Below are positions 9,024 through 12,878 of a stretch of DNA of 27,561 bases, piece by piece. The DNA lies in contig JAGGVT010000002.1 of NCBI GenBank assembly GCA_021157815.1, positions 1 to 27,561 on the forward strand, read 5' to 3'. A program made the translations under genes and the position numbers. This DNA is from a bacterium. Lineage in GTDB: Bacteria; JAJVIF01; JAGGVT01. Position 1 is the stretch's first letter. The number at the start of each line of letters is the position of its first letter. The notes beneath the pieces were generated by a model. It was given only the letters and a program-made list of their open reading frames with translations, had not been told where the DNA came from and did no database searches.

Positions 9024-9689
9024 ATGATAATCGCAATCGACGGTCCCGCGGGAGCCGGTAAAAGCACTCTCGCAAAAAATCTCGCTCGACACCTCAAGAT
9101 TCTATATCTCGATACGGGCGCGACATATCGTGCCGCCGCGCTTTTTGCGATTGAAGAAAAAATTGACCTCGATAATCCGACCCAGTGCGCTGAACTTGTA
9201 AACCGTTGCGATATTGGCCTGCAAACCATGGAAGACGGTAAAATGAAAGTTCTTCTCAATGGGCGGAATGTGTCCGATGAAATTCGAAAAAATGAAGTTT
9301 CAAACGCTGCAAGCAGGATTTCAGTCCATTCCGAGGTGCGGCATGCCCTTGTTGACCTTCAGAGGAGAATTGCTGAAAACAAGGACGTTGTCGCGGAGGG
9401 TCGCGACATCGGGAGCGTTGTGTTTCCGAATGCCGATTTGAAAATCTATCTTGACGCCCCGCTTAATGAACGAGCAGAACGCCGTATCAACGATTACATC
9501 GAGATGGGAGAGGCTAAATCTGTTGAGGAAATCGAAGAGGAGATGTCTGAAAGGGACAATCGCGACATGACTCGCGACGATTCCCCGCTTGTCTGTGTCA
9601 AGGATGCGGTTTATATCAACAACGGCAGGTTTCAACCTGAGGACACACTAAACGCGGTTTTGCAGGTTATCGAATCGATGAGGAGGTAG
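9024..9689 (+). CDS. cmk: Cytidylate kinase
   Basis: A 221-residue cytosolic nucleoside monophosphate kinase that phosphorylates CMP/dCMP with ATP in pyrimidine salvage and nucleic-acid precursor supply. The P-loop GPAGAGKST is at residues 7-15. The substrate-binding LDTGATYRA follows, then the family motif VVAEGRDIGSVVFPNADLKI, the lid region ERAERR, and MSERDNRDMTRDDSPL near the end. Length and motif order match bacterial Cmk. It follows the GspF-like gene by 14 bp and is followed by a nested hairpin element that probably ends the transcript. Confidence 0.97.
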   Translation: MIIAIDGPAGAGKSTLAKNLARHLKILYLDTGATYRAAALFAIEEKIDLDNPTQCAELVNRCDIGLQTMEDGKMKVLLNGRNVSDEIRKNEVSNAASRISVHSEVRHALVDLQRRIAENKDVVAEGRDIGSVVFPNADLKIYLDAPLNERAERRINDYIEMGEAKSVEEIEEEMSERDNRDMTRDDSPLVCVKDAVYINNGRFQPEDTLNAVLQVIESMRR

Positions 9690-9700
9690 GAGCGACGCGT

Positions 9701-9913
9701 TGTGGTGCGGGTATCCTGGGGCTGTTGAGAAACCTAATTATGTAGGGGCAGGTCTCTGTGCCTGCCTTTAGGTTTGCTGTAAATACAGGGCAGCCACAGA
9801 GAACTGCCCCTACGGTTCGGGATAAAACAAGCTTTTTCAACAAGCCCATCCTGCCTGCATCTTTTCAAATCTTAAGTTATATTAAAAAATGCAGGCAGGA
9901 TGCCCGCACCACA
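9701..9913. repeat. Interrupted hairpin element hosting a nested insertion
   Basis: The right arm, 9889-9913 (begins ATGCAGGCAGGATGCCCGCA), pairs with a left arm split in two: 9701-9718 (TGTGGTGCGGGTATCCTG) and 9854-9860 (CCTGCAT). Joined, the left arm matches in 24 of 25 positions. Between the halves lies a 129-bp element plus a repeat of ATCCTG. It sits 11 bp after the cmk stop and may serve as its terminator. Confidence 0.85.
9719..9847. mobile_element. MITE-like palindromic element with ATCCTG flanking duplication
   Basis: A 129-bp non-coding element with ends GGGCTGTTGAGAAA (9719-9732) and TTTTTCAACAAGCCC (9833-9847), inverted relative to each other with small differences. Inside, GTAGGGGCAG (9742-9751) and CTGCCCCTAC (9803-9812) lie in a longer imperfect palindrome. 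Flanks are ATCCTG at 9713-9718 and ATCCTG at 9848-9853, consistent with a 6-bp target-site duplication. Related ends occur at 4333-4346, 12555-12761 and 20410-20422. No transposase is in the window. Confidence 0.8.
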
Positions 9914-9943
9914 AAATTACTGGTTATTTGCACATTTCAATTA

Positions 9944-9981: not shown

Positions 9982-10683
9982 TTAACCATCCTGCTTCGAC
10001 TTATCAATTACTCCCTCGCTTATCTTCTCAACCCTCTGAGATAATTCAACCTTATCCTGTATTTCATCAAACATGCCTTGCTTATCCTCTGATTCATCAA
10101 ACATGCCTGACGAACTTTCGCTTGTGCTCTCTTCGCCCTCTGTACCCATTATCATGCCTGAGAAGAAGCGGAAGTTATCATCCGAGCGTTTAATAATAGC
10201 TGCTGATTTTAATTTGACGTAAAACAACGTAACGTTCCAGAAAACAATCTCAGCGATAATAGCGCCGATTAAAACCCATGTGAGATTGACGGAAATATCA
10301 ACAGGAGCGCCGATATAATTTGTTGCCCATACCGCGAGTGTTGCCAACGGAACAGTCATGGTTAGCCATGCCAGAGTTTGCGTTCCATAGGTCAGGCGTT
10401 TTTCCATTTCGTGGGAGCCGTATTCGTACGCGTCTCTCAATTCCTGTTGGTTTTTCAATGGTAGATTAAAAGCGAAAGCAAGGAGTGCGGACACCGGATG
10501 GTTGTCATCCTCCAGAAGAAGAATCGCTTTTTCCCTGTCACCGTTTGCGAGAGTTTGCGCGATGCGATTCATGAGGTTCGGATTGTCAACTGGCATGCGC
10601 CAGATGCGCGCCAGAAGCATCAGCACAAATGCCAATCCAATGATTGAGCCAATGACCAGGGGTATGAAGATTAATCCGACCAT
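9982..10683 (-). CDS. Membrane protein, weakly MotA/TolQ/ExbB-like, coupled to recN
   Basis: A 233-residue protein. One N-terminal membrane helix (about 2-25) is followed by a cytoplasmic helical stretch containing ALLAFAFNLPLKNQQELRDA and EMEKRLTYGTQTLAWLTMTV, then two more hydrophobic segments (about 107-128 and 135-160), and a hydrophilic acidic tail. The tail holds two similar copies, GMFDESEDKQ and GMFDEIQDKV. Topology and the helical region preceding the second membrane segment resemble MotA/TolQ/ExbB proton-channel proteins, but the conserved pore motif is not clear, so this is tentative. Its ATG lies one base after the recN stop (TGA-A-ATG), suggesting translational coupling. No ExbD/TolR or MotB partner is nearby. 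Confidence 0.6.
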   Translation of the reverse strand: MVGLIFIPLVIGSIIGLAFVLMLLARIWRMPVDNPNLMNRIAQTLANGDREKAILLLEDDNHPVSALLAFAFNLPLKNQQELRDAYEYGSHEMEKRLTYGTQTLAWLTMTVPLATLAVWATNYIGAPVDISVNLTWVLIGAIIAEIVFWNVTLFYVKLKSAAIIKRSDDNFRFFSGMIMGTEGEESTSESSSGMFDESEDKQGMFDEIQDKVELSQRVEKISEGVIDKSKQDG

Positions 10684-12394: not shown

Positions 12395-12878
12395 AGGTGC
12401 GGTTTCAGGTATTTTTCAGTTATTTAATGGATCAGTTTTAGGATGATGACACATCACCAAACATATAACAATGCGCTAAAAGGCGCATTTTGTCAAGGCA
12501 GTGAGATGAGATGGTAGTGGTCGCGTTTGATGTTTATCGCAGCGGCGATGTTCCGGGGCTGTTGAAAAAGGGATAGATTTTAATGTAACCCGGAATGCCT
12601 TTATAAAAAAGCATGAATCAATTCTACAACGTTCGCAGGCATTCCGGGGTTGCGCATATCTACCCACTTCCCCGGCATGCCTGATTTACCTTATAGATAA
12701 TTGTTGCTTTGATTCGGGACGGCATGACCGGGTTACAGTGTAAATAGGCTTTTTCAACAGCTCCGTCCCATAGGCGGTATCGGCTACGCATCGTGGTCGA
12801 TACGATTTGTGTTATTTTAAAGTCAGACAAGCCTTCCTTATGATAAAATCCTCTTATGATTCTTTTGGGAGATTCGAA
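12395..12878. other. Gene-free divergent spacer between recN and folD
   Basis: A 484-bp region between divergent genes. It holds a short hairpin, AATGCGC (12470-12476) with GCGCATT (12483-12489), and the large repeat at 12555-12763. I see no credible coding frame; a minus-strand frame across 12660-13064 is antisense to folD and has no ribosome site. No clear consensus promoter for either recN or folD was found, although both must be transcribed from here. Confidence 0.6.
12555..12763. mobile_element. MITE-like element with GCTGTTGAAAAAG terminal inverted repeats
   Basis: About 209 bp, bounded by GCTGTTGAAAAAG (12558-12570) and its perfect reverse complement CTTTTTCAACAGC (12749-12761). Internal palindromes include AACCCGGAATGCCT (12587-12600) against AGGCATTCCGGGGTT (12637-12651), one bulged base. 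A GTAACCCGG stretch near the left side has a matching CCGGGTTAC near 12728-12736. The interior differs from the 9719-9847 copy; only the ends are shared. Flanking duplication is uncertain. Confidence 0.75.

Follow-up and report, generated by a model that had tools for sequence, protein, structure and literature searches.

A MITE-like element family at hairpin tips and its probable mobilisation by an IS1182-type transposase

Nested repeats at the locus

The window (the whole stretch of DNA analysed, 27.6 kb) corresponds to contig C195 of a draft genome of 3.2 Mb that comprises 221 contigs. The insertion site lies in a convergent gap between a cytidylate kinase gene (9024-9689, + strand) and a gene on the opposite strand (9982-10683, - strand). 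The features of this gap, and those of a second element of the same end type, are as follows.

9700-9861 (9700-9717 plus 9853-9861), + strand: interrupted target repeat unit, TTGTGGTGCGGGT[ATCCT]GCCTGCATC; core intact at 45 genome places
9713-9717, + strand: left copy of the 5-bp target duplication ATCCT (hairpin tip)
9718-9847, + strand: MITE-like element, 130 bp, non-autonomous, no ORF (from the 76-copy family alignment and own-genome search)
9718-9728, + strand: left terminal inverted repeat, GGGGCTGTTGA; outer nucleotides the same as in a complete Sinorhizobium IS1182
9742-9813, no strand: internal inverted repeat, arms 9742-9766 and 9789-9813, 92% complementary
9837-9847, - strand: right terminal inverted repeat, TCAACAAGCCC, read on the minus strand as GGGCTTGTTGA
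9848-9852, + strand: right copy of the 5-bp target duplication ATCCT
9888-9914, - strand: intact partner unit in inverted orientation (core 9891-9907); distance to the first unit 49 bp with 135 bp set aside
12555-12764, + strand: 210-bp element, same end type, other subfamily
12550-12769, + strand: its imperfect 5-bp duplication, GTTCC (12550-12554) and GTCCC (12765-12769)

An earlier, sequence-only reading of this DNA described inverted ends, a direct repeat flanking them and a hairpin arm that can be reconstructed, and all of these were recovered. That reading placed a 129-bp element at 9719-9847, which the 11-nt ends found in all copies correct to 130 bp at 9718-9847. Of the flank given as ATCCTG, ATCCT is indeed repeated on both sides, while the sixth base, G, is the first base of the element. 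With one target copy removed, the arm matches its partner at 24 of 25 positions over the stretch originally considered, and at 25 of 27 over a longer one. The interrupted arm moreover forms a small hairpin of its own, GCGGGT-ATCCT-GCCTGC, with the insertion located at the tip, a feature that had previously gone unseen. Folded as a single strand, 9701-9913 is predicted to be far more stable than its shuffles (z = -10), and a tRNA is the only Rfam match in the window. The target of the 210-bp element is only weakly palindromic.

Nine intact inverted pairs of the ATCCT-type target have a spacing of exactly 49 bp, which is also the spacing of the window pair after setting aside 135 bp (130-bp element plus 5-bp duplication). 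This agreement, together with the intact paralogous sites, supports the insertion history. The proposal of a transposition-like insertion into an older hairpin repeat is thus borne out by many copies, target duplications and intact paralogous sites. The empty sites referred to here are paralogous, within the own genome; no same-genus or same-family genome was among the relatives searched for them. Inverted pairs of the target repeat with an almost invariant 49-bp spacing form a BIME-like arrangement at C61:1312/1361, C175:21146/21195, C206:36448/36497 and other places in the genome.

Copies, ends and targets in the genome

Searching the genome for the element and for the uninterrupted arm, as had been suggested, gave 41 scored matches to the 130-bp element and the target core intact at 45 places. 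Two main subfamilies of about 130 and 131 bp, about 79% alike, were distinguished. Allowing up to one mismatch, the genome contains 239 matches to the end motif GGGCTGTTGAAAAA and none to its reversed letters, used as control, which excludes chance. Distinct copies with paired ends could be read in 76 cases from the stretches around the end matches, so that the count is to be taken as at least 76. Their lengths range from about 86 to 995 bp and are mostly 128-133 bp, with further size classes of about 87, 166, 190, 210, 302 and 453 bp; the single 995-bp copy bears transposase sequence. From the count of ends, we estimate a genome total of roughly 120 copies. Contigs C19, C43, C47, C76 and C77 end inside the element (near base 111-126), as does C103 at its start. 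As many contigs of this 91%-complete draft end inside copies, the assembly is broken by the element, and copy numbers are lower bounds.

The elements are short, non-coding, multi-copy and bounded by terminal inverted repeats, and 60 of the 76 copies are flanked by a direct target duplication, as is characteristic of MITEs. Alignment of copies in different targets gave terminal ends of 11 nt throughout (GGGGCTGTTGA, GGGACTGTTGA or GGGCTTGTTGA). The boundary is the same in a complete Sinorhizobium IS1182 element that shares the outer 12 nt, GGGGCTGTTGAA; since the duplications of that element (e.g. AAAAC) are unambiguous, the boundary is fixed independently. With this boundary, and counting direct repeats with at most one mismatch, the duplication is 4 bp in 35 copies, 5 bp in 20 and 6 bp in five, and is lacking in 16. 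The constant 6-bp duplication of the sequence-only reading therefore does not hold, an outcome that reading had itself named as evidence against it. In targets closed by a C-G pair, a single copy leaves one base of ambiguity in the boundary at each side, and ends of GGG...CCC instead of GGGG...CCCC would turn 4 bp into 6 bp. Unambiguous sites without a closing C-G pair (L010, L124, L140 and L174) favour the longer ends, and a 4-bp duplication is thus preferred over 6 bp for the GAAA hairpins.

Removal of the element and one duplication copy restored palindromic targets such as ATTCCCGC-GAAA-GCGGGAAT, GCGGGC-ATCCT-GCCTGC, GCGGAC-AAGGCT-GTCCGC, GCCGCA-GTAGCC-TGCGGC, CACCATGC-TTTA-GCATGGTG, GTAGGGTGGAT-TTAAA-ATCTACCCTAC and GCTGGT-TTCTA-ACCGGC. 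At least seven target hairpins are unrelated in sequence to one another, a choice of hairpins without sequence consensus as in IS1272; the two commonest occur uninterrupted at 44 and 45 genome places. The first seven facing positions outside the duplication are 84.8% complementary, versus 21-33% in registers slid by 1-4 nt and 43% on average (58% at most) when right flanks are re-dealt among copies. At least six of the seven positions pair at 42 of the 60 duplicated sites, versus 0-1 sites in the slid registers, and 0.2% of random window positions reach 6/7 pairs. In 55 of the 60 sites, the best dyad falls on the centre of the duplication, and the parity of the duplication length matches that of the dyad at nearly all of the sites. 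When targets were folded under DNA parameters, duplication and predicted loop were the same for the 4-bp class; in most members of the 5- and 6-bp classes, the duplication comprised the predicted loop and one closing pair.

An alternative is that insertion is guided by sequence, with motifs of the repeat families (e.g. GC-N4/5-GC) being recognised and a fixed enzyme stagger setting the duplication. Most targets do come from two abundant families of repeats in which C-G pairs adjoin the duplication, and in the Sinorhizobium relative the duplication is fixed at 5 bp and located at sequence hot spots. We nevertheless regard it as unlikely in view of the seven or more unrelated targets, which include A-T and T-A neighbours (L010, L124, L140 and L174), and of a duplication of 4-6 bp whose parity tracks that of the dyad. 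Far less credit is due to the idea that the nested palindromes are one composite repeat (BIME/REPIN-like), which owes its dispersal to a REP-associated tyrosine transposase or to recombination. The dispersed hairpin pairs that serve as targets do resemble such repeats, and hybrid flanks occur in ten or so copies. The element was, however, not confined to one repeat family: it resides in many hairpins unrelated to one another, and the two commonest of these are also present in element-free form. In REPIN/RAYT systems, a hairpin unit is mobilised by an HUH enzyme without target duplication, whereas direct duplications and DDE-type ends are present here. To our knowledge, HUH transposases make neither direct duplications nor inverted ends, which also counts against a composite repeat, and this reading is hardly credible.

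Among the 16 copies without a duplication, three are cut by contig ends, and at least two (L012, and L070 at 801) have no recognisable hairpin. Most of the others are flanked by halves of two different or opposed hairpins (e.g. L020, L029, L039, L054, L139 and L165). The simplest reading of these hybrid-flanked copies is that they arose by recombination between copies, as proposed for ISRm22 (see below). They also bear on a further alternative, namely that hairpins are replaced as by IS1272, with the apparent duplications being incidental. Hairpin replacement has precedents within the family, namely IS1272 and TnSha1 (PMC5678879, PMC4923244), and it would suit the minority of copies with inverted half-hairpin flanks and no duplication (L020, L029, L054, L139 and L165). 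For most copies it is contradicted: 60 of 76 carry a direct tip duplication, mostly with the full stem retained, instead of a lost hairpin without duplication, and the spacing of the window pair is still exactly the 49 bp seen in intact pairs. As a general explanation, replacement is thus very improbable.

A candidate mobiliser and related systems

The sequence-only reading had left the type of the mobiliser open and suggested looking for a transposase gene with such ends. A 995-bp element with both ends the same within one mismatch was found at C90:4771-5765, enclosing a deleted transposase frame that matches the IS1182 profile NF033551 in both its first half (E = 2.7e-32) and its second (E = 1.2e-13). 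Owing to the internal deletion of the gene, neither half reaches the score cut-off set for the full length. Pfam matches to DUF772, DDE_Tnp_1 and DDE_Tnp_1_6 were also obtained. The terminal 25 nt of this remnant are identical to those of the 131-bp subfamily. A second, shorter remnant copy on C56 is 94% identical, and the same inner segment of the profile (about positions 83-239) is missing from both. A scan of genome contigs with the N-terminal part of the remnant gave one fragment, without ends, and no intact IS1182 element with these ends was found in the own genome, a 91%-complete draft with contigs breaking inside copies. An apparently intact IS5/IS1182-like transposase gene on C155 (L067 633-1904) was considered as mobiliser and rejected, as its inverted ends, GGTACCGTTGCAAA, are unrelated. 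At the level of sequence, assignment of the mobiliser to the IS1182 family is well supported, and the transposase would have been supplied by the intact parent of the remnant.

A complete counterpart is an intact IS1182-family element of Sinorhizobium (e.g. NZ_CP141215.1:328188-329685; 1497 bp, ends GGGGCTGTTGAAGAA). Its outer end is identical, and its transposase is 62% identical to the remnant over 69/72 aa. It differs in always giving a 5-bp duplication (20 records, few distinct sites) and in using non-hairpin targets; the choice of hairpins is therefore not common to every element with these ends.

Within the IS1182 family, IS1272 and TnSha1 of staphylococci target hairpins of little sequence similarity, which they delete wholly or in part without target duplication, and a review statement cited in both reports holds that some IS1182 members target palindromes (PMC5678879, PMC4923244). 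The present elements share the transposase family and the hairpin-forming targets, but keep the stem and duplicate the tip. A loop-duplicating route has been drawn as a hypothetical alternative only (Fig. 13, pathway c in PMC5678879). ISRm22 of Sinorhizobium meliloti, listed under IS4 and carrying a Transposase_11 domain, is found with all copies in REP palindromes, inserted at the axis of palindromy with direct repeats, and hybrid repeats in some copies were explained by recombination (PMC1525189). Axis insertion, direct repeats and some hybrid-flanked copies are shared with the elements described here; ISRm22 differs in being an autonomous IS with 6-bp repeats in one REP type (PMC1525189). 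As for bacterial MITEs, the likeness comprises short non-coding length, terminal inverted repeats, many copies and target duplication, and probably also ends shared with an IS, represented here by a deleted remnant, while the strict landing at hairpin tips and a duplication length varying with the tip are unlike bacterial MITEs in general. New with respect to the open literature checked is a duplication that varies with the loop yet is centred on it; an earlier description elsewhere is possible.

Proposed insertion route and distribution

The combined data make it likely that the MITE-like element was moved in trans by an IS1182-family DDE transposase and inserted at the hairpin tip of an extruded palindrome. 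Under this proposal, the transposase would mobilise the non-autonomous element, which would enter a small palindromic repeat at its tip, the repeat presumably being in an extruded hairpin or cruciform state. Joining would take place on both strands symmetrically around the dyad axis, next to the loop or no more than one base pair from it, after which the hairpin tip (ATCCT in the window) would be duplicated by gap repair. Insertion exactly at the hairpin tip, with the tip doubled, suggests that the folded shape of the target is recognised rather than its letters.

DDE transposases normally cut a fixed distance apart. Here, the stagger may instead be set by the extruded hairpin and not by the enzyme, with strands joined at the edge of the cruciform loop and the duplication corresponding to the tip of 4, 5 or 6 bp; we hold this part of the proposal tentatively, at slightly less than even confidence. 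If the insertion route is true, the genome holds a natural record of structure-guided integration dozens of events deep, and the family would be a loop-duplicating counterpart to the hairpin-deleting IS1272. It would also explain a low-harm spread, the elements being parked in dispersed palindromes.

The element was absent from the plasmids and phages searched and from 58 other genomes, save for three that contain 25-30 bp of its internal sequence. Within the internal hairpin, 25 bp at 9742-9766 (GTAGGGGCAGGT...) resemble dispersed repeats in G012, G035 and G058, which belong to other phyla. A wider search with the ends gave 30 and 10 hits in two same-class genomes and 54 in one distant genome. 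Flanks were readable in few cases, some lying in hairpins (TTCCA/TGGAA) and others not. The same-class genomes G001 and G003 bear the ends, with some TTCCA/TGGAA duplications at stems, in numbers too few to test the rule. Among relatives, a multi-copy, distant IS1182-type element in G050 shows duplications of about 4 bp and, as judged by eye, no clear choice of hairpins; other distant IS1182-type elements have partly palindromic flanks, likewise as seen by eye only. In the distant genome G277 (L234-L240), 54 exact end motifs, GGGGCTGTTGAAAAA, were found, and the one clearly paired copy has a 5-bp GTTTG duplication in a target that is not a hairpin. Horizontal spread is a possible origin of these end motifs.
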